Virus record (IMG/VR): IMGVR_UViG_3300009151_000398 | Coordinates: 1-23,598 of that record | Direction: 5' to 3' (one strand) | DNA from: a virus | Length of the DNA stretch: 23,598 nucleotides | In this document: positions 1 to 15,300 of the stretch, piece after piece | Numbering within the stretch: position 1 is the first letter of the stretch | How the letters are laid out: each line of letters begins with the position of its first letter | The notes under the pieces: model-generated | Database searches by the model: none | Told to the model about the DNA's origin: nothing | The model's input: only the letters and a program-made list of their open reading frames with translations | Translations under genes and position numbers: made by a program

Positions 1-395
1 ACTATAACAGCACCCGGTGTTGGGGTGTACGTTCCGTTAGCTGTGAATGTTGTAATTTTAGTTGCAGCAGACCAGTATACGTTACCCGTTCCGTTTGATG
101 CAAGCAATTGACCTGCTGTGCCTTGTGATGCTGTTGAGTCAATGATTTTGGCACCAGAAGCAAACGTCAAGTTAGCAGTACTGCCAATGCTCACGTTTGC
201 CGTACCTGAGATTAATGTTGCCGCAACTGTAGCAGCATTGACAGTACCAGTTGTCCATACGCCAGTAGCATTGGCTTGTACTGCCGACGCAATATTAGCA
301 CTAGTAGTTACAAACAACGTACTTGTATTAGTTTGGTTTGCAACATTAATAGACGGAGCATTGACTAGTGTAGAATTGGCAGTAAAATTTGACAT
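1..395 (-). CDS. Tail fibre protein 3, N-terminal part (runs off the left edge)
   Basis: The reading frame starts with ATG at 395 and stays open to the window edge (131 codons visible), so the 3' end is missing. The product begins MSNFTANSTLVNAPSINV and is rich in Ala, Asn, Ser, Thr and Val, like the two fibres upstream. Residues about 19-52 (TNTSTLFVTTSANIAS, then TTGTVNAAT) closely match a module of fibre 1. The visible end, TFTANGTYTPTPGAVIV, resembles the entry to the glycine-rich tip domain of many phage fibres, although the glycines themselves would lie beyond the edge. The likely role is a receptor-binding or accessory tail fibre. The start is 8 nt after the stop of the 58-residue gene. 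No Shine-Dalgarno sequence is visible there, only A-rich sequence, so translation may depend on coupling to the upstream gene. The fibre assignment is fairly secure; the tip domain is inferred. Confidence 0.8.
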   Translation of the reverse strand, partial: MSNFTANSTLVNAPSINVANQTNTSTLFVTTSANIASAVQANATGVWTTGTVNAATVAATLISGTANVSIGSTANLTFASGAKIIDSTASQGTAGQLLASNGTGNVYWSAATKITTFTANGTYTPTPGAVI

Positions 396-632: not shown

Positions 633-962
633 TTATGCAGCAATCCACGGCAATGGAGAAGCAATTTTTGGATTAGATGCTGCATTAAGTTGCCCATCAA
701 TATCAGCTAAAATAGCAGCAACTCCTTCTTCACCCATTGCAGTATGTACCCATTCAATAACAATATCATTAGTTAAATTTGCATAAGGAATATAAACGTC
801 TCTAGTATAAAATGGAATGCCGGTTGCTCCCGCCATATACGCTGTATGTGTTCCATTAGTCCCGGTACAGGACCAATTTACGCTGCAAATTACATCAACT
901 TCTCCCTGGTATGAGGGATAATTGTCCATCGAGCCTACTGTCCAAGTATATGTGTTATCCAT
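633..962 (-). CDS. Small phage protein of the fibre region, 109 aa (DUF7936-like)
   Basis: The product begins MDNTYTWTVGSMDNYPSYQG and ends PKIASPLPWIAA. I chose the ATG at 962 because AAGGAG lies 7 nt upstream of it; a longer frame from 1016 would overlap the end of fibre 2 and lacks a comparable site. The layout is characteristic of a small family found beside phage fibre genes and which I recall as DUF7936. It has an N-terminal Y-T-W strand, a central V-x-W-x-x-T-G-x-x-G segment, then P-Y-A-x-L-T with W-V-x-x-A-M-G-E-E (residues about 74-88), and finally a C-terminal P-L-P-W. The biochemical role of that family is not known to me; fibre assembly is a guess from position. It starts 10 nt after the fibre 2 stop. 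The gene call is secure; the family name comes from memory. Confidence 0.82.
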   Translation of the reverse strand: MDNTYTWTVGSMDNYPSYQGEVDVICSVNWSCTGTNGTHTAYMAGATGIPFYTRDVYIPYANLTNDIVIEWVHTAMGEEGVAAILADIDGQLNAASNPKIASPLPWIAA

Positions 963-972
963 AATAAACTCC

Positions 973-3900
973 TTAAGCGAATCGAGTAGCAGTTGCCGTA
1001 ATAACTTGAGCCGCACCTGATGTTTGAGTTGCCACTAAGTTGTTTCCACTAACTGCTATAGCCATAAGTGTTGCCGTAACAAGGCTTGTGTATTTAAAAG
1101 AAACTGTTGGACCAGAACACGCTGCTACCAAAATACCCACAGCATTATAATTTGCAGCAGAAGCAGAGGCATAAAGACTTGCTTGAACTAGCCACAACCC
1201 ATTTCCGGGATTAGGTATTGCAAAGATAGTTACAGCTGTACCTGATGCAGTAGATGCTGTGTTCATGCTTGCTGTTTGGTGAATACCTGCTACAAGTTGA
1301 ACTTGGTTAGACGTGATATCTGTAGGAACCGATGTAGATCCAACATAAAAGTTTCCAGTCGAGTCTAACGTAGCTTTAAGCGTTGTATTGGTAGCAAATC
1401 CAAGCGAGTTAGCGGCGGGTAAATAAATGCCTGTTACTGGGATGGTTGTGTTTGTGACGTTTACGTTGTTTGCGCTAATACCGTAGAAAGATGCCACTGG
1501 TACAGATACAGTTAATTGTCCGGAGTTTAGACTCATCGTAGTTGTAAAACTAGCCGCGGCACCTGCGGTTCCGGATACGGTAGATGTGTCCCATGTGTGT
1601 GTTTGTCCGGCTTGGTAATATCGTGTAGCGTATCCAGCGGCTATAAAAAAATCAGACCCACTAGCATTGTAGACGTTTTGACCAACAATAAAATATTGAC
1701 TACTTTGATAATACAACCCGCCGCCACCAAACTGCAATGCAGGAGTTGTTCCCCACGCCTTTACGGATGTAGTTCCAATAGCTAACGTACCGTTCAAGTA
1801 ATTCGGAGCCGATCCGCTCATATACAAATTCCAACTATTAGTCGCTGAACCTGTGCCTTGTGCGCCATAATAAGCGTATGCTGTGCCAATACTTTGTGTT
1901 GCGTTGGCACCCTTCGCAATGTTGCCGGCATAATAGCTATAGGAACTTGTAACAATTGCGTTAGATGTTGCGCTGATATTTGGAACGTCAGCGTAAAATG
2001 CATAAGCACTTGTAACTGTATTACTAATTGCGGTTGCTGCTAATTGCCAATATCCTCGAATCGCAGTCAAGTTTGTTGACATTATCGAACTGTTTAAATA
2101 TGCAGCGCTAACAAATGCATAAAGGTTGCCAACAGTAGCGGTTGCTTGCGGAGTGAAGATAGGCACTGATGACAATCCAGTCATAGTCGTTGTAGCGGCT
2201 GTGCCGTTCATGTTTGGATTAATATAAAACCCAAATGGATTACCCGCAAAGGTGTTTGTACCTTGCTGTATAAAATTGTATTGCAATGATGTACTAGGAG
2301 ACCAAAAGATAGGCCCGTTAGTCATTGTGGTTGTACCTATACCCAGCTGGTTCGCAACCAATGTTGTTGCATTGGCGGTAACCGTGCCAATTGTCAATGT
2401 AGCAGAAGTTAGGTTTGCTTGTGACGTACTATTTTGTAATAATACAGAAGGTGCAGTGGTTACCGTACTATTACCTAATGTAGTTGACAACGAAGTTCGT
2501 GTAGCAATTGAAGTGCTGTTCTGTAATGATACAGTCGGCGCACCTGTGATTGTAGTATTTCCGCCAACCAATCCTGATGTAGTACTTGATGTTGTTACGT
2601 TAATAGTAGGTACGGTTGTGCTATTGCCCACTAGTGTTAGCGTAGACGTTGTAAGCTGTACGTTACCACCTACGTTAGCAGATGTAGTTGCAAAGAACGT
2701 AGCAGTATTCACTTGTCCTGTAATGTTGATTGCTGCAGCATTGACTAGTGTAGCATTAGCAGTGAATGTTGCACCAACAGTTAATAATGCTGAGTTAACG
2801 CTAGTAGATAAATTAGCAGTAGTGCCTGTGATTGCACCTGTAGCATCAATTGTATTTGCTGATAGAACAAATCGGGAAATGCTGTTACCTAGTGTTTGAC
2901 CTGATGAATTTGATGTAGGAACAATAGCAGTAGCATTTATTGTAATGCCGGTAGTTGTATATGAAGCAGCGTTAATATTACCTGTATGATAAGTACCTGT
3001 AGTATTAGCAATAAATGCTGTGCCGACTGAAAGAACAGCTGAGTTTACAATACCTGTTGCATTGGTTATCCAAATACCAGCAGTATTGACATAGACGTTA
3101 GAGGACGCTAGGTTTGCTGAAGTTGTGGTAAATAGCGTAGCGGTATTGGTTTGCCCGACAACATTGATTGCTGCAGCATTGACTAGTGTAGCATTAGCAG
3201 TGAATGTTGCACCAACAGTCAACAATGCTGAGTTAACGCTAGTGCTTACATTAGCAAACCCTGTGATTGTAGTGTTGCCAGTAATGCCAAATGTTGTCGA
3301 GTTGGCAACTGTAATCATTCTAAGACCACCAGCTGCCCCAGACCAAGGAACAATTGCTAAATTAGCATTACCTATACCAGAGTTGCCAACCGCAACAATT
3401 GTAGTATCACCTGCAGTAGTCAGAGAGTTATATGCACCTGCGCCAGCATTAGGAAGTACACCTAATGAGTATGACCCATTTAATATTTTTAAAACTTGGA
3501 CTGTATTCGCTGCTGCAGTAGTATCTGTGATTGTTGTAACTGTTGAGTTAGCAATAAATGCTGTGCCGACAGTTAATAAAGCGGTGTTGACGCTAGTGCT
3601 TACATTAGCAAAGCCAGTAATGGTTGTATTACCAGCAGCAAGAAGACCTGTAACATTTGTTGATGTACTATTGATGGACAATCTAGAAGATAAAGCCGTG
3701 GTATTTGATACTACAAATCCAAATCTTGAAGGAACATACCCGGAGTTAGCAACAGGTGCGCTATCTACTTCTGCAAGCATGTAAGCAGAATTGATGAATG
3801 TATTGCCATCGTGAGCTTGGAACATAAACGTACCGAGATCGTCATCAGCAACAACAATTCCTCCAGCTCGAGATTTACCTGTATTCCAATATGGTCCATA

Positions 3901-4803
3901 GCCATCAGCAGTTGAATTTCTTGCAACTAACTGTGGATTAAATGCAATATTAGAAAGCATTGTCAATGATGTATTAGATAACGTAGTATTAGATATGCTA
4001 TTGCCAAAAAATACTTTTGAAGTATTAGCGCTGAAACTAGTACCCACTGTCAACAATGCTGAGTTAACGCTAGTAGATAAATTAGCAGTAGTGCCTGTGA
4101 TTGCACCTGTAGCATCAATTGTATTTGCTGATAGAACAAATCGGGAAATAGTATTTCCTAATGTCTGCCCTGAGCTATTTGATGTAGGAACAATAGCAGT
4201 AGCATTTATTGTAATGCCGGTAGTCGTATATGAAGCAGCGTTAATATTACCTGTAGCATTAATGGCGCTAAAATATGACTGATTGCCATCATTAGCGTAT
4301 ACACCTTGCTGAACAATAATACCTGAACCAAAAACAACATTTGCAGATGTTCCGCCGCCAGAAATATTAAGAGAATCAATTGATATAGCGCCACTAATTA
4401 CGCCAATTCGTAACACATTTGAAGTTAAATTATCGGGATCAGCAAATATTAATTGTTTATTGCCTGTTGCATTATAATTTAAATAAACGCCAAATCCAGT
4501 TCCGGTACCAACATCGCTGCCACCAATACCTAGACCATATCCCGTATAAATTGACCTAGCCGCATTTCCAATGGGACTTTTGATGGTAATAAGTCCATTA
4601 GAAGCATAATAGGTATAGCAATTTTGACCGACGGCGAATACGTTACCTGATGTTCCGTTACTGCTGAACAGAATGCCATCAGCCATATTTAGCGCTAACC
4701 CACCTGCACCGATGTAGGCAGAATTGGTTGCGTATGATGCAGTCGTGTTGGGAGTTCTACCTGATGTAGAGGTTCGCAATACCTGTAATGCTGTATTTGC
4801 CAT
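973..4803 (-). CDS. Tail fibre protein 2, 1276 aa, repeat-rich
   Basis: This is a long fibre built mainly of Asn, Ser, Thr, Ala and Val with very few charged residues. Residues 1-60 (MANTALQVLRTSTSG, then GGLALNMADGILFSSNGT) follow the N-terminal pattern of phage fibres that attach to the baseplate. Residues about 183-810 are a shaft of repeated modules such as TANLSTSVNSALLTVG, INVVGQTNTATLFTTTSAN and GNTTITG. Residues about 900-1000 hold aromatic repeats (SAYAFYADV, SSYSYYAGN, TAYAYYGAQ, then APNYLNGTLAIGTTS), a module common in marine phage fibres. A segment resembling GIYLPAANSLGFATN follows. The last ~110 residues, from QVQLVAGIHQTAS, look like a compact beta tip domain and are the best candidate for receptor contact. 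The start is supported by AAGG a few bases upstream. Two near-identical 201-bp DNA segments lie inside the gene. Confidence 0.88.
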   Translation of the reverse strand: MANTALQVLRTSTSGRTPNTTASYATNSAYIGAGGLALNMADGILFSSNGTSGNVFAVGQNCYTYYASNGLITIKSPIGNAARSIYTGYGLGIGGSDVGTGTGFGVYLNYNATGNKQLIFADPDNLTSNVLRIGVISGAISIDSLNISGGGTSANVVFGSGIIVQQGVYANDGNQSYFSAINATGNINAASYTTTGITINATAIVPTSNSSGQTLGNTISRFVLSANTIDATGAITGTTANLSTSVNSALLTVGTSFSANTSKVFFGNSISNTTLSNTSLTMLSNIAFNPQLVARNSTADGYGPYWNTGKSRAGGIVVADDDLGTFMFQAHDGNTFINSAYMLAEVDSAPVANSGYVPSRFGFVVSNTTALSSRLSINSTSTNVTGLLAAGNTTITGFANVSTSVNTALLTVGTAFIANSTVTTITDTTAAANTVQVLKILNGSYSLGVLPNAGAGAYNSLTTAGDTTIVAVGNSGIGNANLAIVPWSGAAGGLRMITVANSTTFGITGNTTITGFANVSTSVNSALLTVGATFTANATLVNAAAINVVGQTNTATLFTTTSANLASSNVYVNTAGIWITNATGIVNSAVLSVGTAFIANTTGTYHTGNINAASYTTTGITINATAIVPTSNSSGQTLGNSISRFVLSANTIDATGAITGTTANLSTSVNSALLTVGATFTANATLVNAAAINITGQVNTATFFATTSANVGGNVQLTTSTLTLVGNSTTVPTINVTTSSTTSGLVGGNTTITGAPTVSLQNSTSIATRTSLSTTLGNSTVTTAPSVLLQNSTSQANLTSATLTIGTVTANATTLVANQLGIGTTTMTNGPIFWSPSTSLQYNFIQQGTNTFAGNPFGFYINPNMNGTAATTTMTGLSSVPIFTPQATATVGNLYAFVSAAYLNSSIMSTNLTAIRGYWQLAATAISNTVTSAYAFYADVPNISATSNAIVTSSYSYYAGNIAKGANATQSIGTAYAYYGAQGTGSATNSWNLYMSGSAPNYLNGTLAIGTTSVKAWGTTPALQFGGGGLYYQSSQYFIVGQNVYNASGSDFFIAAGYATRYYQAGQTHTWDTSTVSGTAGAAASFTTTMSLNSGQLTVSVPVASFYGISANNVNVTNTTIPVTGIYLPAANSLGFATNTTLKATLDSTGNFYVGSTSVPTDITSNQVQLVAGIHQTASMNTASTASGTAVTIFAIPNPGNGLWLVQASLYASASAANYNAVGILVAACSGPTVSFKYTSLVTATLMAIAVSGNNLVATQTSGAAQVITATATRFA
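2561..2742 (-). repeat. 182-bp module shared between fibre 2 and fibre 1 (copy in fibre 2)
   Basis: This segment matches 6828-7009 in fibre 1 over the same 182-bp length with no length change that I can see and roughly 85-90% identity by eye. It encodes the shaft module STLTLVGNSTTVPTINVTTS, the SGLVGGN linker and the TSANV / INITGQ elements. The two copies are about 4.27 kb apart in different genes and in the same orientation. Differences are scattered and many look synonymous (for example acgttaatagta against aaattaattgta), which points to an old duplication or exchange kept in frame. Confidence 0.85.
2726..2805 (-). repeat. 80-bp repeat in fibre 2, paired with 3164-3243
   Basis: Positions 2726-2805 and 3164-3243 match over 80 bp with about two differences. 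They encode the module running from LTVGATFTANATLV to NAAAIN, and a related, more diverged version occurs in fibre 1 at about 6993-7040 and in fibre 3 near 353-395. The offset of 438 bp is again a multiple of three (146 codons). Confidence 0.85.
2786..2986 (-). repeat. 201-bp direct repeat inside fibre 2, distal copy
   Basis: This segment is nearly identical to 4055-4255 (same length, only a handful of differences, most of them clustered around the codons for GQTLGN). It encodes the module from NINAASYTTTGITINATAIV to TANLSTSVNSAL. The high identity compared with the 182-bp cross-gene module suggests a recent duplication or continuing homogenisation. It overlaps, at its low-coordinate end, the 80-bp repeat described separately. 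Confidence 0.92.
3164..3243 (-). repeat. 80-bp repeat in fibre 2, second copy
   Basis: This is the partner of 2726-2805. Taken with the 201-bp pair, it shows that the fibre 2 shaft is a mosaic of a few modules reused in different orders rather than a simple tandem array. Confidence 0.85.
4055..4255 (-). repeat. 201-bp direct repeat inside fibre 2, proximal copy
   Basis: This is the partner of 2786-2986, offset by 1269 bp, which is a whole number of codons (423). Unequal recombination between the two copies would therefore change fibre length by 423 residues without breaking the frame. It encodes residues about 183-249. Confidence 0.92.
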
Positions 4804-4836: not shown

Positions 4837-5037
4837 TTAAAATGATTCTTCAGTCACCTTTTTATTGGGTTTCTGTGCTTTTGCGACAGCACTATTTAGC
4901 GCCGTCTGTAATTCCTCTACTTTTTTTGTCTTAAAGTGTAAATCTGTTTCCAAAAGTAATAACTTACTTTGCATTTCACTAATGACTGCTCTCATCTTTT
5001 CAATATACACATTAATAAATTCGCCACTCATATCCAT
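4837..5037 (-). CDS. Small coiled-coil protein, 66 aa, function unknown
   Basis: The product begins MDMSGEFINVYIEKMRAVIS and is charged and helical. Hydrophobic residues recur in heptad-like spacing from about residue 10 to 50 (I, M, V, L, L, L, V, L), and the tail is lysine-rich (AQKPNKKVTEESF). I do not recognise a named family, but similar short helical proteins are common between fibre genes in T4-like phages of aquatic bacteria. The ATG at 5037 overlaps the endonuclease stop codon in a TAATG arrangement and is preceded by AAGG. A second in-frame ATG at 5031 is the alternative start. A late-promoter octamer sits directly against the ATG at 5037, so transcripts from it would start close to the ATG at 5031. 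A trimeric coiled-coil fibre accessory is possible but unproven. Confidence 0.78.
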   Translation of the reverse strand: MDMSGEFINVYIEKMRAVISEMQSKLLLLETDLHFKTKKVEELQTALNSAVAKAQKPNKKVTEESF

Positions 5038-5756
5038 TATTTATACCTTTTTAATTTGCCCTTTACAAATCCTGCAGGCATACATATAGTAGCAGGAACA
5101 TATCTATTTATAATCCCGTTATTAACACAAATAGTACCTAGTTGTTTTTCTTTTAATTTTTGGCGAGTTTCATCAGACATTTGTGCTTGTAGTTTTCTTT
5201 TTTCTTTAATCTTTTGTTTTGTTTCTTCAGTATGAGTTTTCCCTTTAAAGCCAGAAGGGATTCCTTTATGTGCATCAATTTGACGTTTGCGATACTCAGG
5301 ATTTTGCCATTGATTTTTTACATTATCACTAAGAATTTTTCTTTGTTCAGGATCAGAGAATTGTTTTATAGAAGCTTTGCTAATATTATTTTTTGTTGCT
5401 TCTGATCTAATTTTGCCTATATTATTTAATTTTATTTTTTGTATAGTTTCATCGGAGTGATTATATCCTAAAGTAGACGGAGTAGTAGCTTTTTGAGTTT
5501 TATTATAATATTTTTTATTCAATTCTTCTGGCTTTATCATATCAAGCCAGCGCTGTTCTTCAATGACTAAAGCTTCTTTGGTATCTACACGAGAAACTAT
5601 TCTACGTTTGAAGTCATTTGGCCTGCGGCGATGAGCTTCTCGCATACTATTCGAACTGCTGATATACCCATCATTTATATGACCCCAATGCCTTCCAACA
5701 TAAAATCTATTGTATTGCTTGTCAAACCAAACGTAAATGAATCCATACTTTTCCAT
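5037..5756 (-). CDS. GIY-YIG homing endonuclease with NUMOD3-type DNA-binding motifs, 239 aa
   Basis: This is a site-specific DNA nuclease of the free-standing phage homing type. Counting from the ATG at 5756, residues 5-8 (GFIY) and 19-21 (YVG) form the GIY-YIG signature. The Arg-rich segment around 44-52, Glu66/Glu67 and Asn85 (in YYN) are in the positions expected for the catalytic Arg, Glu and Asn. Two NUMOD3-like motifs follow, at about 97-115 (GYNHSDETIQKIKLNNIGK) and 170-187 (FKGKTHTEETKQKIKEKR), with an S-x-P-E-Q-R-K segment between them. The C-terminus (NNGIINRYVP, then PAGFVKGKLKRYK) matches the small domain ending many phage homing nucleases. A longer start at 5840 would overlap fibre 1 and lacks a ribosome-binding site; GGAG sits 6 nt before the chosen ATG. 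It lies between fibre 1 and the coiled-coil gene, is lysine-rich, and differs sharply in composition from its neighbours, all as expected for an inserted mobile gene. Confidence 0.9.
   Translation of the reverse strand: MEKYGFIYVWFDKQYNRFYVGRHWGHINDGYISSSNSMREAHRRRPNDFKRRIVSRVDTKEALVIEEQRWLDMIKPEELNKKYYNKTQKATTPSTLGYNHSDETIQKIKLNNIGKIRSEATKNNISKASIKQFSDPEQRKILSDNVKNQWQNPEYRKRQIDAHKGIPSGFKGKTHTEETKQKIKEKRKLQAQMSDETRQKLKEKQLGTICVNNGIINRYVPATICMPAGFVKGKLKRYK
5038..5045 (-). promoter_or_regulatory. TATAAATA octamer fused to the start of the 66-aa gene
   Basis: On the coding strand the sequence AAAAGGTATAAATAATG encodes the final K-R-Y-K and stop of the endonuclease, carries an AAGG ribosome-binding site and the exact T4 late core TATAAATA, and ends in the ATG of the next gene. 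A late start site normally lies about 6 nt past the octamer, which would fall inside the first codons. A transcript from here could only use the second ATG at 5031, and would be nearly leaderless. The match is exact; its activity is uncertain. Confidence 0.4.
5105..5112 (-). promoter_or_regulatory. Possible T4-type late promoter (TATAAATA) inside the endonuclease 3' end
   Basis: This is an exact TATAAATA octamer on the coding strand, 67 nt before the start of the 66-residue gene. A start site about 6 nt downstream would give a leader of about 60 nt for that gene. It lies within codons for the C-terminal domain of the endonuclease (near NNGIINRYV), so it could be there by chance. Confidence 0.45.
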
Positions 5757-5757
5757 A

Positions 5758-5793
5758 AAATACTCCAGTAAACAAGATATCACTAGAGTATTT
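5758..5793 (-). promoter_or_regulatory. RNA hairpin that would hide the endonuclease ribosome-binding site
   Basis: On the coding strand, AAATACTCTAGT (5793-5782) can pair with ACTGGAGTATTT (5769-5758) as a 12-bp stem with a single G-U pair and a 12-nt loop. The GGAG ribosome-binding site of the endonuclease (5766-5763) is fully inside the 3' arm, and the ATG follows one base after the stem. The 5' arm overlaps the late-promoter octamer, so RNA started from that promoter would lack most of the 5' arm and could not form the hairpin. The same arrangement controls I-TevI and other T4 endonuclease genes. Confidence 0.75.
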
Positions 5794-5796
5794 ATA
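5789..5796 (-). promoter_or_regulatory. T4-type late promoter for the homing endonuclease
   Basis: This is an exact TATAAATA octamer on the coding strand in the 53-bp gap between fibre 1 and the endonuclease, 32 nt before the start codon. The expected start site near 5783 leaves a leader of about 27 nt containing GGAG. Its location in one of the few real intergenic gaps, on the coding strand, supports function. Such promoters need a gp55-type sigma factor, which would be encoded elsewhere in the genome. Confidence 0.75.
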
Positions 5797-5809
5797 TAAT
5801 AGCGTGTGT

Positions 5810-8230
5810 CTAGAACGTGCCGCCGTCCACGCCACCCCAAGCAGGTAAATTGTTTGTAACCTGCAACACGTTGCCGTTTGCTGCGATACCTAATTTTGAC
5901 AATGTGTTAGTTGCAGATGCATAAAGCAAGTCACCAGCAGCATATGTGCCTGTACCTGTACCACCTGATGTTGCACCTAACGCCGTACTTAATGATAATG
6001 AGTTTGCGGTGAGGTTGACATTGACTGTTGAGTTTGCAGTTACTGTAACTGTGAGTGAGTTAGCAACAAAGACGCCACCTGAACCATAGGGTAACAAGTA
6101 TGCTTGCAATGTACCTGTAGTTGCACCCGTATCGATGGTTGTTGTGCCAGGTGCAGTGCCTGTTGCAAAAAGTTTATAATATGGGTTCGTATTAGATGAT
6201 GATGCAGCAATACGAGCAATACCAGAGTAGAACGTATTAAGTGTATTACCTGTTGCTTGATAGATGCCTGTATCAACAGCATCCGTGAATGTTACGGTAG
6301 ATGCTTGTTGATCTGCAAGTTGAATCAAATTGTCCTTGACTTGCAAATTGGTTGTATCAATCGTTGTCAATGTACCTTGTACAGTCAAGTTACCTGTAGC
6401 AAGAATATCACGAATAGACAAGTATCCAGACGTTGCAACAATGTTGGCACCCGTGAAGGTCACCATGGTGCTGTTAGCAATAAATGCGGTGCCTATGCTA
6501 TGTACAGCGGCGTTGACCACACCTGTTGAGTTCGCTACGAACACACCAGCTGTATTTGCAATGACGTTAGACGATGCAATGTTGGCTGATGTTGTAACGA
6601 ATAACGTTGCTGTATTAACTTGTCCTGTGACGTTGGCATACGCTGCTTGAAGAGCAGTTGTAACATACGCTGTTGCTACGTTAAGTGTGGTGACGTTAGC
6701 AATACCCATCGCCATCGCTGTACTATTAACTACCGATGTACCAATCGTCAATGTAGCAGATGTTAAGTTCGCTTGTGACGTGCTGTTCTGTAATAAAACA
6801 GCCGGCGCACCTGTGATCGTACTATTGCCGCCAACCAATCCTGATGTAGTACTTGATGTTGTTAAATTAATTGTAGGAACTGTTGTACTATTGCCTACAA
6901 GCGTTAAGGTTGATGTTGTAAGCTGTACGTTACTACCTACGTTAGCACTCGTAGTTGCAAAGAACGTAGCTGTATTAATTTGACCTGTAATGTTGATTGC
7001 TGCAGCATTAACAAGGGTTGCATTAGCAGTAAATGTTGCAGACGCCTGAATTGTGGCGGCATTGACAGTGCCTGTTGTAAAAATTCCACTAGAATTAGCT
7101 TGCACTGCAGATGCAATATTAGCACTTGTTGTAGCATAGAGCGTAGCAGTATTAACTTGACCTGTGATGTTGGCATATGAACCTGACAAGTTAGCAACAG
7201 CAAGTGTTGCAGTCAAGCCAGCCGCATTGACAACCGTACTACCAATTGTCAAGGCAAGTGACGTTAGGTTAGAAGTTGATGTGCTATTTTGTAATGTAAT
7301 GATTGGCGCATTAGTTACGCTTGAGTTACCATATACAATGTTGCCGGTTGTGATAGTCGCTGTGGATACTGTTGAGTTACCTGCAATTGCAAAGGCAGAC
7401 ACATTAGTTGTAACGTTAGAACCTACAGCCAAGCCTACTGTATTAACAACAACAGTACCTAAGGTCAATGCAAGTGATGTTAAATTCGATGTTGATGTGC
7501 TATTTTGTAGCGTGATAATAGGTGCATTAGTTACGCTAGAGTTGCCGTAAACAATGTTGCCGGTTGTAACAGTCGCTGTAGATACTGTTGAGTTGCCAGT
7601 GATAGAAAACGCTGTCGTATTAACAGTAACGTTAGATCCGACCTGTGTGTTAGTTGTGACACTAACTGTATTGACGTTAAGGTTATTAGCGATGACTACG
7701 TTATTAGTTGTAGTCGTAAATGTGAACCCAGCAGTGCCGCCTAGCGTACCGCTGTTATTAAACTGAATTTGTGTGTTGGCACCACCAGGAGTTGCTGATG
7801 CACCAGTACGGCCGCTGATGTATTGTACCATTGCCGCTGTGGTTGCAAGTTCTAAACCTGATCCGCCGCCACTGGCATTAGCACCTAGGACAGATGAGTT
7901 CGCTGTATTGGATATTGAACTGACAATAACAGGAATCGTTGCAGACGATGTTCCTTGTACAACAAGGCCTGTTGTGAATGTATTTGATACGAATGAGTTG
8001 GCATCAAGAATGACAGTCGCATTAGCGGTCTGTGTACCTGGAGCTGTTGTTTGATTTACATAAGCAAACTTAGCGCCGCCGATAACAAATCCTGCGGTGC
8101 CTACGCCGGTTTGGGCACCAACATAGATGTTATTTGAGTTATAAGAATATGCTAACTCACCGGCAGCAAGTACTGTGCCTGGTGATGCTGCAGTGTTACT
8201 ACGACGAACTTGTACAATTGTATTTGCCAT
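5810..8230 (-). CDS. Tail fibre protein 1, 806 aa, repeat-rich
   Basis: Residues 1-60 (MANTIVQVRRSNTAASPGTV, LAAGELAYSYNSNNIYVGAQ, then FVIGGAKF) are the N-terminal pattern shared by many fibres of aquatic T4-like phages (Q-x-R-R-S...GELAYS...IYVG). The shaft from about 170 to 600 is made of Asn/Ser/Thr-rich modules, including a tandem duplication at about 198-335. Residues about 610-713 (NLTVQGTLTTIDTTNLQVKD, NLIQLAD, then DTGIYQ and TTGTLQAYLLPYG) form a conserved fibre module. The C-terminus (AAGDLLYASATNTLSKLG, then LPAWGGVDGGTF) is the usual ending of this family. It probably forms a trimeric fibre or a fibre-attachment segment. The ATG at 8230 overlaps the stop of the preceding gene by one base. 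The family call is secure; the exact place on the virion is not known. Confidence 0.9.
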   Translation of the reverse strand: MANTIVQVRRSNTAASPGTVLAAGELAYSYNSNNIYVGAQTGVGTAGFVIGGAKFAYVNQTTAPGTQTANATVILDANSFVSNTFTTGLVVQGTSSATIPVIVSSISNTANSSVLGANASGGGSGLELATTAAMVQYISGRTGASATPGGANTQIQFNNSGTLGGTAGFTFTTTTNNVVIANNLNVNTVSVTTNTQVGSNVTVNTTAFSITGNSTVSTATVTTGNIVYGNSSVTNAPIITLQNSTSTSNLTSLALTLGTVVVNTVGLAVGSNVTTNVSAFAIAGNSTVSTATITTGNIVYGNSSVTNAPIITLQNSTSTSNLTSLALTIGSTVVNAAGLTATLAVANLSGSYANITGQVNTATLYATTSANIASAVQANSSGIFTTGTVNAATIQASATFTANATLVNAAAINITGQINTATFFATTSANVGSNVQLTTSTLTLVGNSTTVPTINLTTSSTTSGLVGGNSTITGAPAVLLQNSTSQANLTSATLTIGTSVVNSTAMAMGIANVTTLNVATAYVTTALQAAYANVTGQVNTATLFVTTSANIASSNVIANTAGVFVANSTGVVNAAVHSIGTAFIANSTMVTFTGANIVATSGYLSIRDILATGNLTVQGTLTTIDTTNLQVKDNLIQLADQQASTVTFTDAVDTGIYQATGNTLNTFYSGIARIAASSSNTNPYYKLFATGTAPGTTTIDTGATTGTLQAYLLPYGSGGVFVANSLTVTVTANSTVNVNLTANSLSLSTALGATSGGTGTGTYAAGDLLYASATNTLSKLGIAANGNVLQVTNNLPAWGGVDGGTF
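6828..7009 (-). repeat. 182-bp module shared between fibre 1 and fibre 2 (copy in fibre 1)
   Basis: This is the partner of the segment at 2561-2742. Here it covers residues about 407-467 of fibre 1. Both copies begin in the codons for the VGGN linker and end in NAAAINITGQ. Because the copies are direct repeats, recombination between them would delete the end of fibre 1, the endonuclease and the 66-residue gene, and would fuse fibre 1 to fibre 2 in frame. Confidence 0.85.
7225..7636 (-). repeat. Tandem 216-bp duplication in the fibre 1 shaft
   Basis: Positions 7225-7420 and 7441-7636 match over 196 bp with a period of 216 bp (72 codons). The repeated protein unit contains the elements GNSTVSTAT, TTGNIVYGNSSVTNAP and IITLQNSTSTSNLTSLALT, identical or nearly so in both copies. 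The DNA differences are scattered and mostly synonymous, so selection seems to have kept the protein repeat. Confidence 0.88.
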
Positions 8231-9508: not shown

Positions 9509-9728
9509 TTTTATTACTCATTAAAATCTTTAACATTTCTTTAATATCTGTTACAGCTTCTGTTAGTTCATTAACTTTTCTATTAATGGCGTCTTGTTGC
9601 TGAACCCTATTACGCTCATTCATGTATTGAGTTAATTCTGCATCATTTCTATTTATGATGGCACCTGTATTTACATTCCTGAATAATCCTGGAATGCTGG
9701 TTGCAATAAATTCATTTTGAGTTGCCAT
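9498..9728 (-). CDS. Small coiled-coil virion-region protein, 76 aa
   Basis: The first ~30 residues (MATQNEFIATSIPGLFRNVN, then TGAIINRND) match a F-x-R-x-x-x-T-G-A-I-I-N-x-D start that recurs in small proteins beside the DUF4815 gene in related phages. The rest is a charged helix (residues about 38-70, with VNELTEAVTDIKEMLKILM) that should form a coiled coil. The ATG overlaps the stop of the 705-residue gene by one base (TAATG). No enzyme motif or membrane segment is visible. A role in baseplate or fibre assembly fits the position. The gene is well supported by its tight packing and coding character; the function is unknown. Confidence 0.78.
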   Translation of the reverse strand: MATQNEFIATSIPGLFRNVNTGAIINRNDAELTQYMNERNRVQQQDAINRKVNELTEAVTDIKEMLKILMSNKNGN

Positions 9729-11845
9729 TATGCGCTAACACCCAAGGCTTTCAAGCTGTTTACTCTAGGAACAATATTGACATTATTTGATAGAAGAACG
9801 ATTTTAAATTGTGCTACATCAAATGTATCATATTCAGTTAGATCTGTTCCATAATATCTAACCACAAAATTTTGTGGATTAATAAATGCTTCATAGGGAC
9901 TTGTAACCTTGTCAATGTACAACCCGCTACCATTAATGACCGTATTAGTTGCTACAAGTGAATTGAGCGTCAACTGGGTAGTGTTTGCAATTGATGCAAC
10001 AGTCGCAATGAAATAATTGGTATTAGGTGCTGTTGAAGAATAGATTTTTACAACATCATTGACCAAAATATCTGTACCGAAATTGGTTGCTGAGCCTGTA
10101 ACTGTGGCGCTTGCTGCTGTTGTAGTAACTACACCTGCAACATTTAAACTTGGAGGCTGAGTAGGCAATCCAAAATCAATTTCTACATAATTGTTTGCAG
10201 CGGTTGTACTAACCTGCCCACCTGTGTTATTAACAGTAACCAGTTGTGTCCACTTTTTGTCATCAAATGCATCGCTATCTTTGGTATTGTGTAATTTTGC
10301 ATAAGCAAGAACACTCGTACCTGCAGGTTGGAACGCTGTTAAGTATACAAACAAGCCCTCTGACGATTTGCCAGAATCAAATGTTAACTTTGTTGTGATA
10401 TGCTTTGACAGTGCGTTACCTGTACGGATAGCTTCATTTGTTGTATCGTTATTAATTAAATATTTGCCTACATGCAAACTTAATAAGTCTGTATCAACAT
10501 ATGGTGCGCTATAGACACTATTTGATGTATTGGCTTGTTTAATTGTAATCTTCTGAATTGAAGATTTATTACTATTGTATAAATTTGTTGGGTATTGTAC
10601 TTCGTTTGACCGAGACATGATCAAACTATTATATTTTGTGAGTGACGTTGTTTTTAAATTATCAACGTAACTAAAATTTGAATTAGATACTGTATAGTTT
10701 GATCCGTCATAATATGCAAGACTTTGTTGAATGTTTGCTGATCCACCTGCAGAAAGTCTAACAGCAACTTCAGGATTTATTTTTGACACACTAAGATTGT
10801 CAACAGAAGAAATTGTTGCATTAATAACACCATTGATTGCAATTCCGCCTGCTGCGCCGCCGGCACTAATAGACCCTGCAATAGATTGTCCCGCTTGGAA
10901 ATACAAAGTTGAGTTTGCAGTTGATCCTTTAAGATATATTGTATTTGCGTATTGGTTGGTGTAATATACTTCACCGACTTGTGTTTTGAAATATGGTGCG
11001 GCAACAGTGCTTAAACGCCAAACACTTGAATATGGCTCAGCTATGGTCAAGGTAGTATTATTTGCAATGCTTACAACTCTACGAACAATAGGCACTGTTA
11101 AAGTATTAGCAGCTGTGCCCCATACAGCAATATAACTGCCGCTGGTAAACGTGCTTAGGAACGTAGTGCCGGTACCTGTTACTGTTGTGCTGTTAGCAAT
11201 GACAGTTTGTGCAGACACATTAGCATATTTTGTAAATACAATATCACCGCCAACATATGCGCTTGACTGACCTGTAATTGTAAGAAACTCCATGTCATCA
11301 TTAACGTATTCATAGGTTGCGCTGTTAGCAGTAAATTGTGCAATGTATACCGCATGCTTTAGTTGTGATGCAGCACGTGGGGTTACTGTTCCGTCTGATG
11401 CATAGTCAAACAAAGCACCCTGAAACCCTGCAGAAAACCCAGAGAGTTTTGTATTAGTTCCTACGATAGGATATCCTGCAGTTCCTGTCCATAACTCATA
11501 GTCAGGATCATACGCTTGAATTCTAAGCGCATATTTTTTGCCTGACGCTAATGGGATTGGTTGAGTAAATGTAAGTGAAGTCGCTGTGTTAGCAAATGGT
11601 TCAGTAACAATTGTTGAGTATGCAACATCTAAGTGTGATGCAGGATATATTGAAGTAAAATTTGGACTACCATCTAAATTTGTATCACAAATAGAAACAT
11701 GTAATCCCGGATTAGAAATTCCTGAGCGGTTATTATTTGCTTGCGGTTTTGATTTTAAATAAAGATCGAGACCTGTGACAAATACAGAAGTTGAATTTGC
11801 TGCAGCATTTGGATCAATATAAAAAGTCTGTGCTAAAATATACAT
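9728..11845 (-). CDS. Baseplate/fibre-attachment protein, 705 aa; equivalent to the C-terminal part of DUF4815-type proteins
   Basis: The start MYILAQTFYI, followed by VFVTGLDLYLKSK at about residue 21, matches the D-P-L-A-Q-T-F...G-V-F-x-T-S-I-D-L-Y-F-x-x-K element found deep inside the large structural proteins of T4-like aquatic phages. Further elements come in the same order as in those proteins: SGKKYALRIQAYDPDYELWT at 91-110, LKHAVYIAQF, and a mid-chain segment with SKHITTKLTFDSGKSSEGLF, then VYLTAFQPAGTSVLAYAKL. The chain ends with FKIVLLSNNVNIVPRVNSLKAL, the family's usual C-terminus. It thus looks like the last part of a longer ancestral protein, now a separate gene. GAGG lies 5 nt before the ATG, so the start is real. 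It is predicted to be a host-facing baseplate component that holds fibres. Confidence 0.85.
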   Translation of the reverse strand: MYILAQTFYIDPNAAANSTSVFVTGLDLYLKSKPQANNNRSGISNPGLHVSICDTNLDGSPNFTSIYPASHLDVAYSTIVTEPFANTATSLTFTQPIPLASGKKYALRIQAYDPDYELWTGTAGYPIVGTNTKLSGFSAGFQGALFDYASDGTVTPRAASQLKHAVYIAQFTANSATYEYVNDDMEFLTITGQSSAYVGGDIVFTKYANVSAQTVIANSTTVTGTGTTFLSTFTSGSYIAVWGTAANTLTVPIVRRVVSIANNTTLTIAEPYSSVWRLSTVAAPYFKTQVGEVYYTNQYANTIYLKGSTANSTLYFQAGQSIAGSISAGGAAGGIAINGVINATISSVDNLSVSKINPEVAVRLSAGGSANIQQSLAYYDGSNYTVSNSNFSYVDNLKTTSLTKYNSLIMSRSNEVQYPTNLYNSNKSSIQKITIKQANTSNSVYSAPYVDTDLLSLHVGKYLINNDTTNEAIRTGNALSKHITTKLTFDSGKSSEGLFVYLTAFQPAGTSVLAYAKLHNTKDSDAFDDKKWTQLVTVNNTGGQVSTTAANNYVEIDFGLPTQPPSLNVAGVVTTTAASATVTGSATNFGTDILVNDVVKIYSSTAPNTNYFIATVASIANTTQLTLNSLVATNTVINGSGLYIDKVTSPYEAFINPQNFVVRYYGTDLTEYDTFDVAQFKIVLLSNNVNIVPRVNSLKALGVSA

Positions 11846-11857
11846 TTAAACCTCGAT

Positions 11858-12310
11858 TTAACCACTAACGATAGACACAGGGGTAGTAACAAAATTATTA
11901 GATACAGCACTACCTGCTAAAACTTGCAACGTTACATAACAGCTTGATGTGTTATCACTGTTAGTTAAAACAGCTTGCTTGGTACCTGCGATTCGATTTT
12001 TTAAATCTTGGTTCGCCAATAATGAGGTCGCATTGCTAGGAAGGCCTGAGTTATAATAATATGTGAATGTGATTGCTCCGTTTGCATCTGTTTGCAAATT
12101 ATCTCCAGGAAGCCCTCCATATATTTGGCAACTTGCAGAGGAATCAGTCCCATTATAATAAAAATAATGTCTTGTTGCGGGACGTAGCCCCTGTGCAGAT
12201 ATAACAAACCGTTGAGCAGCTGCTATGTATGTGATATTTTGGCTAGCAGCGGGTGGCGTAAACCCCCCAACAATTGCTGAGTTAGCAAGAATTCCTGTAG
12301 TAGTTGCCAT
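11858..12310 (-). CDS. Ig-like virion protein, 150 aa; equivalent to an internal module of DUF4815-type proteins
   Basis: The core (residues about 29-75: AAQRFVISAQGLRPATRHYF, YYNGTDSSASC, then TDANGAITFTYYY) follows the pattern F-x-x-x-G-L-x-P-x-T-x-x-Y-x-F-F-x-G...T-D-x-x-G-x-x-x-x-x-F. This is a fibronectin/Ig-like repeat normally found within the large DUF4815-type structural proteins, just before their A-Q-T-F element. The second half (GTKQAVLTNSDNTSSCYVTL) looks like the closing strands of the same domain. It sits exactly where that module would lie if the flanking genes were one chain. An exact late-promoter octamer and AGGA precede the ATG. It is probably a baseplate or fibre-collar component. 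Confidence 0.78.
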   Translation of the reverse strand: MATTTGILANSAIVGGFTPPAASQNITYIAAAQRFVISAQGLRPATRHYFYYNGTDSSASCQIYGGLPGDNLQTDANGAITFTYYYNSGLPSNATSLLANQDLKNRIAGTKQAVLTNSDNTSSCYVTLQVLAGSAVSNNFVTTPVSIVSG

Positions 12311-12336
12311 CGTATATTGTTCCTGAATATTTTAAT

Positions 12337-12344
12337 TATTTATA
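12337..12344 (-). promoter_or_regulatory. T4-type late promoter upstream of the 150-aa gene
   Basis: This is an exact TATAAATA octamer on the coding strand in a 51-bp intergenic gap, 26 nt before the start codon. A start site about 6 nt downstream gives a leader of about 20 nt that includes AGGA. It would drive the run of overlapping genes from the 150-residue protein through fibre 1. It is the cleanest simple late promoter in the window. Confidence 0.72.
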
Positions 12345-12361
12345 GACATGATTTAAGCATA

Positions 12362-15300
12362 TCAATGGCCGCCGAGCATCTGATCACGAGAGTAGTACGT
12401 GACGCCAGTTTGAATAATTGGATGTGTGGGTGTTGCAGTACTTGTACCTGTGTATATAACGGGTGTTGTATTTGTAGTTGAATTAGCTACTACAGTATTA
12501 GATGTAGCAATTACATTGTTTGTTGCAACAATGCTTCCAGTAAGAAGCTTCTGTGTATATGGTAAAGTCGTAATTTTTCCGTCAGTATTTGCAACAGTTG
12601 CTGTATTGCTTGGATTCACTTTATGTGGAATATTAATTGCAAATATCTGAGGAACAACTTCATGATTGATGATTGATGTTGTGTTTTCAGGACTTGTTGT
12701 ATCTGTAAATGATAAATCATTAAAGTTATCAGCAAAGAACCCATACTTAAAGCGGTTCAACGTAGGGCTTACTGAAGAAGGAATTGTCAAATCTTTAACG
12801 TTCTGCTCAAGACTTGTTAAAGTGACATAGAATTCTAATGCTGCAATTCTTGCCTCAAGATTCGCTATGTCTTTCATTGTGTATCCAACAGGTTGATACT
12901 GTTTTTGTTGTGATACAGTTAATGTAGGTACAATAACAGTGTGCTGCTGGACTCTAAATGTAGTTAGAGTCTCATTAGCAATGCCTTTATCTAAAATAAG
13001 AGTATAATTTGAAGATAACTGCGAAGGTACAGAGGGGTATGGCGGAACGTATAATAACGTGATAGTCATTGTATCAACAGGAGCAGGAGGCGCAACTAAA
13101 TTGTTTGCACCAGAAACACCTTGAATAGATGAAATGACGCCGTTTTTATCAATAACTACACGATCTACACGCCCCAAATAATTTTCAAGAGTTGAACTGT
13201 ATGTGCTTGCTGGGACAGGAAACCCGATCTTAGTAGTTAGCGACGCACTGTTACCAAAACGAGTATTAGCATTTAATACTGCAGGATTAATGGTTGCACC
13301 TGTAACTGTTGTAGATACAGTGGCTGTGTTTGGTACACGCGGTCTAAAATCTACATGGTCAATCAAATCACGATACACGCCATCTTTGCCAACCAATTCA
13401 GGAATTTCGTGTGTATTGACTTTCCCGCCGGTTAGTGTTGCATTGAGAGTTGCAAAAGATAATGTATCATCAACTGGGTATGAAACCCTACCTGCAAAGA
13501 ATCCTGCAGAAACATTTGTGTAATTGTCAAATGCAACTAACAGCCCCTTTGATGAAGTGAGTGCTACCGTAGATCCTGGATTAAGATTCAAGTACCCATG
13601 ATTATAGTAATCTACATTTTGATTATGATCAATGTAGAACTGGTTGGTCACATCGGTGCCTGTATTCGCAGTGGCCGCTACAACGTTAGCGGAAAGATCC
13701 AAGAACACAGCTTTCAATCTATGAATATCAGGTATACCCAAATTCCATGGGCCTGTTGTATTTGATGTGTATGCATTAACTGTAGCAGAACCTGATCCTG
13801 TTGCTGCAGCAGACATAATGACAACAGTAGAATTGACTGAGGAAACAGTTGTGCCTACTGTGATACCTGTAATATTTGCTGTTAGTGTTTCACCAGCAAC
13901 AATACCTGTGTTTGAAGAAATACTTGTAATCCACAAATTCCCACTAGCTAGTGTACCGGTGAAAGATGCTGCTTGCTGTACATTTGCAAGATTGAGTTTA
14001 ACCCAAGTGTATCGATTTGATACTTTAACTAGTGGGGTTGGAGCAACCTTTAGAATATTACACTCAACTCGAACATTGACGTTTGAAGAAAAATAACTTG
14101 CACTATTTGCTTTATTTAAAACAATAGTTAGGATTTGTCCGCTTGCATCAAGGTTTGCAAAACGGTCTGTTCTGTTATGAATAGAATAGTGTGTGTTTGC
14201 AGGATGATAGAATACAGCATTTGAGGTTGCATTAGTATTAAGTGTGTTTGAATCCACTTGGAAAGCGGTGCTATTAATAACACTTGTGATTCGTTTAATC
14301 TCACCTAATGAATTACTATATAGTTTAATATAGTCACCTGATGTTAGCACAGTCAACGGAGATACTGAAGCAGTTACAACATTGCTTGAAGCGGTAACAC
14401 CAAATGTTCCTAAGTAATTTGCAGACGCTTGAACATTCGCTAGCGGAATAACACTGATGTCATATTCTTGTGTAGCAGATAGTGTGCCGCCATTTGAATA
14501 TGGGTGATATTCATTACCGTTTGTAGTGACAGTGATGATACCCGCCGTATTTGTGCTACGTATGTCTTTATAAATGTATGTAATGGTATTTGCGTTCTTT
14601 GTTGCTGTAGCACCATGATAAAATACCATACCTGATGAATTGGTATTAACAACAGTTGCAATAGGTGTGTTTAGTGTTGGATCAATTGTTGTTTTAATAT
14701 CAGCAATACCCGTATACGCTGTACCGTTGGTTGCTGAGTAATACACACTTCGTGCATTTCTAAAATTATATCCAGGATTCATATCTACATCATAAAGATA
14801 AAGATTATAAGTTGCTGTATTGGTGCCCGGCGTACCTCCTGGCATTAACGATTTATGGCGAATTCTTGCGCGACCAATTGCATTACCTACAGGTGGTGCT
14901 GTATTACTGATTGACCAGTGGGCGTTGTTGCTCAAGTATTGCTTGGCTGTATCATAAAACGTAACTAGATCACCTACGGTGTAATCAAATACACCACCCA
15001 GCTCATTGATAGTAATATAGTTTCCATAATTCAATGCTATTGATGTATTAGATACTGTAGTTGTGTTACCTTGTGGTACAGACAATACGTAGTTTGTAAA
15101 CGTCTGTACTCGTTTTCCTGAGATATATGCATATCCTGGATCGATAGTAATCTGGAATGTATTTGCTTCTGCACTAACTGTGTTAGCAGTAATTGTTGAT
15201 ACAACAAACGGATCTATAACAAAGTCACCTGCAGTATCTTGTGTTCTCTTCGCCATCTCATCGCCAATAATACTATATGATGTCTGTTGGTTCTGAAGAT

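Follow-up and report, generated by a model that had tools for sequence, protein, structure and literature searches.

Why does a single phage gene carry two almost identical 201-bp segments in the same orientation? The gene, here called fibre 2, encodes a modular tail-fibre-like protein and lies in the IMG/VR virus record IMGVR_UViG_3300009151_000398, whose 23,598 bp, classed as linear, form the window of this analysis. Its sequence makes it likely that the two segments, copies A and B, are the trace of recombination involving copies of modules and linkers, both inside single fibre genes and from one such gene to another. The labels fibre and T4-like are putative and rest on gene position, on a repeat-rich sequence with abundant Thr, Asn and Ser, and on the neighbouring genes. 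All comparisons are based on assembled contigs; other loci are denoted by L numbers.

Copies A and B align without gaps, with 190 of 201 bases equal and an offset of 1269 bp, i.e., 3 x 423 codons. An initial annotation had pointed out this pair, and both its similarity and its offset are confirmed; that the offset is divisible by three is correct as well, but this is expected for two module copies in one gene and provides no separate evidence. Exact runs measure 95, 48 and 30 bp, the first being the longest exact direct repeat of the window, and weaker homology extends to 2744-2986/4013-4255 (90% overall). In-frame identity is 187/198 (94%) compared with 71-88% in eight other module pairs, drawn from both fibre genes and partly overlapping one another, so that A and B are closer than other module copies, as had been proposed.

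The differences between the copies are clustered. Ten of the eleven fall within 27 bp (module codons 26-34; permutation p ~5e-6), and the eleventh is a synonymous change in module codon 9. At synonymous sites A and B differ by 1.0/21.3 in the first part, 6.8/7.0 in the patch and 0/26.3 in the last part, i.e., the proportion of synonymous differences is 0.05, 0.96 and 0.00, respectively, vs 0.34-0.69 in the eight other pairs. The near-identity noted initially hence holds for the outer parts, whereas the 27-bp patch is as diverged as unrelated modules. Synonymous divergence like that of other modules, named beforehand as evidence against a recent event, was not found in the outer parts. Because synonymous difference is 0-5% outside the patch and about 96% inside, with 34-69% in the other pairs, the A/B pair is, as judged from these sites, a recombination mosaic. 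Near-identical outer parts next to a diverged patch that resembles modules of other phages indicate that recent copying or homogenisation affected some of the pair but not all of it. From the earlier proposal of a recent event or continuing conversion, we hence retain recent recombination, copying or conversion; that it continues cannot be shown from one contig. Compared over 30 bases, the patch of copy B matched one L014 module at 25/30 positions, L013 and L017 at 24/30 and copy A at 20/30.

This distribution of synonymous changes also bears on selection at the protein or RNA level, which could keep copies alike without recombination. The protein module is indeed well conserved, with 22 of 56 columns invariant in an alignment of 13 modules, two of them from the window. 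At synonymous sites, however, the copies hardly differ outside the patch, whereas within it the differences have reached saturation, and we regard selection as a highly improbable cause. Likewise, a near-identical repeat pair within a tail-fibre gene might be the work of a dedicated diversity system, i.e., a diversity-generating retroelement or a site-specific invertase. The A/B differences are of mixed types and not adenine-restricted, whichever copy is taken as the template, and this argues against a retroelement, whereas the direct, not inverted, orientation of the repeats argues against an invertase. Moreover, a scan of 14 proteins of the window against PHROGs, and of 11 of these against Pfam too, showed neither a reverse transcriptase nor a recombinase, small open reading frames (ORFs) and the genome beyond the window being outside the scan. 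The probability of such a system is close to negligible.

The nearest relative, IMGVR_UViG_3300032242_002820 (loci L005 and L011), aligns with the window at 88-96% identity in the major blocks of the baseplate-fibre region. Its 43.9-kb record contains a single module copy, in which 167 of 168 bases equal copy A, patch included. The fibre 2 of L011 has 377 amino acids (aa) and switches after module codon 55, on a codon boundary, to the sequence of the window's third fibre-like gene, of which window positions 70-212 are 90% identical over 143 bp to the L011 sequence following its module. As the module 3' end was chosen with the L011 junction in view, a switch at the module end is partly true by definition. 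The best modules of other phages lose similarity within four codons of the same end. A 29-base segment of the repeat that extends beyond the L011 divergence point had no exact counterpart in the other viral contigs searched, records very near the window possibly being excluded. Also, fibre 1 of L011 is longer than that of the window (1158 aa vs 806 aa) via in-frame indels of 684 and 372 bp. The initial annotation had predicted that recombination would shorten or lengthen the fibre by 423 residues; in-frame length change is indeed found in relatives, the 377-aa fibre 2 included, but not the exact 423-residue deletion.

A different history would start with copy A, or a longer block, being recently duplicated once to give rise to B, in which a short foreign piece later replaced 27 bp without recurrent conversion. 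Apart from the patch, a single base within 201 bp distinguishes A from B, and L011 carries only the A copy, both as a duplication would predict. The patch still requires a second recombination event, however, and to the left of copy B stands the usual module flank, FIANTTGxYH, found in three of four L013/L014/L017 modules compared, which looks more like conversion of a module already in place than like insertion of a new one. Read in this way, the canonical flank slightly favours conversion of a resident module over duplication and import. We consider the duplication possible, albeit less probable than not.

The locus had further been suspected as a likely site of assembly error, and a chimeric join at a strain-shared repeat is conceivable in a record classed as linear and a gene so rich in repeats. 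Yet the longest exact run spans 95 bp, which would be shorter than a usual read pair, and the patch distinguishes the two copies. Copy A with its left flank occurs in a second contig, the left flank of B has homologues in other phages, and the 1276-codon frame is open throughout. An artefact is hence quite unlikely, and this part of the initial annotation is not upheld.

The A/B repeat is an instance of a module of about 56 residues, TGxxNAASxTTTG..NATAIVPTSN...LGNSxxRFVLSANTID.TG, which recurs across many phage contigs in their fibre-like ORFs, frequently in multiple copies at one locus. Other modules of fibre 2 likewise occur in such ORFs. Fibre 2 gave no Pfam or PHROGs match at E 0.001, no match among INPHARED phages at 1e-5 and no PDB match at E 1. 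We scanned 37 of 47 loci, window included, for exact direct repeats with copies more than 90 bp apart; left out were five baseplate-only loci and five that were near-identical or from the same contig, and the scan retained both L059 and L060, which are 99% alike. Such repeats reached at least 30 bp in 24/37 loci, at least 60 bp in 11/37 and at least 90 bp in 4/37. The 95-bp repeat of the window is near the top but not exceptional, with 114 bp in L025, 113 bp in L056 and 106 bp in L048. At a spacing above 60 bp, none of the six baseplate-anchored loci (L005-L010) contained an exact direct repeat of at least 30 bp.

Several length changes between fibres lie at short repeated stretches. The 588-aa fibre of L013 and the 905-aa fibre of L017 share blocks of 89-96% identity, and in-frame differences of 480 and 471 bp separate them. 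Each breakpoint lies within a 39-42-bp stretch of which the long form has two imperfect copies and the short form one. L013 differs from L014 by 1416 bp in frame, again at a linker of this kind, or by 105 bp if a different L014 copy is used, and the overlapping homology at the L013/L014/L017 breakpoints amounts to 39-46 bp. Of six breakpoints placed by hand, a number that may count one event twice, every one touches a linker motif (Fisher p 0.0016, post hoc, with the motif pattern defined after the breakpoints were seen). A less circular test used 6-residue words learned from 33 other loci only, some of which had been fetched using linker-containing queries. Together, the breakpoint stretches recurred more than stretches drawn at random from these genes (summed p 0.001); taken breakpoint by breakpoint, 4-29% of stretches scored as high. 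All 13 indel rows are in frame, which is not evidence by itself since the filter required the frame to be open to either side of the indel; moreover, some events are represented by more than one row, and in one row the two loci compared come from a single contig.

Between copies A and B lie two unique domains. Domain B recurs in L014, L069 and L070 with 71-81% aa identity and differing neighbours, and in a position-by-position comparison with L014 its similarity at the DNA level declines at the linkers. A GNT[TS]ITGFANVS linker follows domain B in all four phages. Domain A has no clear relative except a 43% match over 67 aa in L063, linker included, and no match among INPHARED phages. Structure prediction was uninformative, with a mean predicted local distance difference test score of 55.9 for the module and 32.1 for domain B.

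Taken together, a fibre gene of this kind may be pictured as beads on a string, in which recurrent modules and short conserved linkers alternate with unique domains. Homologous recombination between module copies, by gene conversion, by unequal crossing-over or through exchange with a relative during co-infection, would homogenise copies, as in the outer parts of A and B, and leave or import short foreign pieces such as the patch. The same process could add, remove or swap the domains between module copies in frame, and if A recombined with B, a stretch of 423 codons would be removed or doubled together with its two unique domains. From known phage biology, the expected effect is an altered fibre length and possibly altered receptor-binding domains; an altered fibre may in turn alter host binding.

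Several observations weigh against this explanation by recombination among module copies. A single duplication with later import of the patch fits A and B about equally well, no donor for the copy B patch was present among the loci fetched, and the 423-codon deletion form (853 aa) was not found among the contigs compared. At the L011 switch point homology to the third gene is only weak, and A/B identity continues 32 bp past it. The indels of 684 and 372 bp in fibre 1 have little direct-repeat homology at their junctions. L059 and L060, contigs about 99% identical, differ by a 105-bp in-frame indel in one fibre ORF without a flanking repeat, so not all length change is repeat-driven. Finally, the full linker precedes domain B in only two of four phages (window and L070); in the others just a variant of its second half is present.

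More tentatively, and with well under even confidence, we propose that the tail fibres of a widespread group of aquatic phages form an open array of cassettes, in which the linker (GNT[TS]ITGFANVSTSVN..LLTVG) and the 56-residue module are common joints for in-frame exchange of internal domains between different phages, and that A and B bracket a two-domain cassette lost or gained as a unit. On the main reading, the pair is a clear record, at the level of synonymous sites, of recombination inside a wild phage tail fibre, with reusable linkers as likely exchange joints. If right, that reading would help to predict which fibre parts can be swapped. It also provides a warning that fibre length and domain content can vary among otherwise close phages.

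The case is an example of known tail-fibre domain shuffling and not a new system. For T-even (T4-like) tail fibres, adhesin swapping is reportedly driven by short conserved motifs that lie beside variable domains and act as recombination joints. Conserved short motifs flanking exchangeable fibre domains were found here as well, since a linker follows domain B in every phage compared, stands complete before it in half of them, and the L013/L014/L017 indels break at linkers. Other motifs and genes are involved, however, and in contrast to the function claimed for T-even phages the likeness is drawn from sequence. A 1996 study on T-even phages is said to describe duplication of a fibre domain within its gene; the in-gene duplication is alike, but here the copies are 423 codons apart with unique domains between them.

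Three further reports were compared as far as their available excerpts go. Enterococcus phage EfV12-phi1 acquired in-frame 1.8-kb tandem tail-fibre duplications during a coevolution experiment (PMC6365445), likewise an in-frame length change within a myovirus tail-fibre gene. Those duplications are head-to-tail tandems, whereas the present copies, from an environmental contig, are dispersed and partly diverged, with unique sequence filling the 1269-bp offset. For lytic E. coli phages, recombination hotspots were proposed at conserved motifs (44, 95 and 20 nt) that precede and follow the receptor-binding domain, their presence being uncorrelated with observed exchanges (PMC10408124); they flank a C-terminal domain, in contrast to the several internal linkers of one fibre found here. 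Pelagimyophages, T4-like aquatic phages, have a hypervariable tail-fibre region termed the host recognition cluster (PMC7029224). A variable tail-fibre region is common to both cases, but the variation is in gene content there and in module-level recombination here. The arrangement described above was not found in the literature searched, most subscription journals being outside its scope.

Table 1. Positions of fibre genes, repeats, linkers and domains in the window
Feature	Position	Strand	Remarks
Fibre 2 gene, modular tail-fibre-like protein	973..4803	-	ORF, 1276 aa, frame open throughout
Repeat copy A	4055..4255	-	Module TGNINAASY...DATGAITGTT at 4087-4254 and beginning of linker STSVNSALL
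Diverged patch, copy A	4150..4176	-	Identical in L011
Unique domain A	3640..4029	-	Between repeats, about aa 259-388, edges approximate
Linker GNTTITGFANVSTSVNTALLTVG	3565..3633	-	Sequence comparison
Domain B	3280..3561	-	Between repeats, about aa 415-508, edges approximate
Linker GNTTITGFANVSTSVNSALLTVG	3211..3279	-	Sequence comparison
Second exact repeat, 56 bp	3164..3219	-	Partner 2726-2781, offset 438; next longest unrelated exact direct repeat
Second exact repeat, partner copy, 56 bp	2726..2781	-	4 bases from copy B end
Repeat copy B	2786..2986	-	Module at 2818-2985
Diverged patch, copy B	2881..2907	-	10/27 bases unlike A; 6/7 changed codons synonymous
Block common to fibre 2 and fibre 1	2509..2773 vs 6776-7040	-	265 bp, 88% identical
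Fibre 1 gene	5810..8230	-	ORF, 806 aa
Third fibre-like gene, start	3..395	-	ORF

The block common to fibre 2 and fibre 1 (Table 1) reflects module sharing and counts as a second indication that these genes have exchanged sequence. Fibre 1 matched no Pfam or PHROG family. Upstream of the fibre genes, three window proteins match the PHROG baseplate wedge families 219, 17744 and 438, and a neighbour of the fibres matches phrog_3304, an L-shaped tail fibre assembly family.

A homing endonuclease gene (phrog_314, NUMOD3) separates fibre 1 from fibre 2 in the window, at 5037-5840 on the minus strand. An ORF at 7449-8252 of L011 equals it in length and place, within a block 94% identical to the window. 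Homing endonucleases occur at boundaries of inter-phage exchange, according to the available excerpt of one report (PMC10448857). Nothing specific pointed to this gene as a driver of conversion in the comparison with L011, most adjacent 200-bp bins being 93-100% identical and distant bins equally high.

At 633-1016 (minus strand) the window encodes a DUF7936 protein (phrog_7802), the longest ORF of which overlaps the end of fibre 2 in a different frame. The second fibre ORF of the L059/L060 pair is open in L060 and broken in L059 by further indels. The fibre region of L011 also encodes, at 12977-13636, a protein of 219 aa whose match to a sulfotransferase family (PF03567, E 0.0089) is weak and does not pass the cut-off, and the short fibre 2 of L011 is followed, at 9626-12748, by a 1040-aa gene with a concanavalin A-like lectin domain (PF13385).

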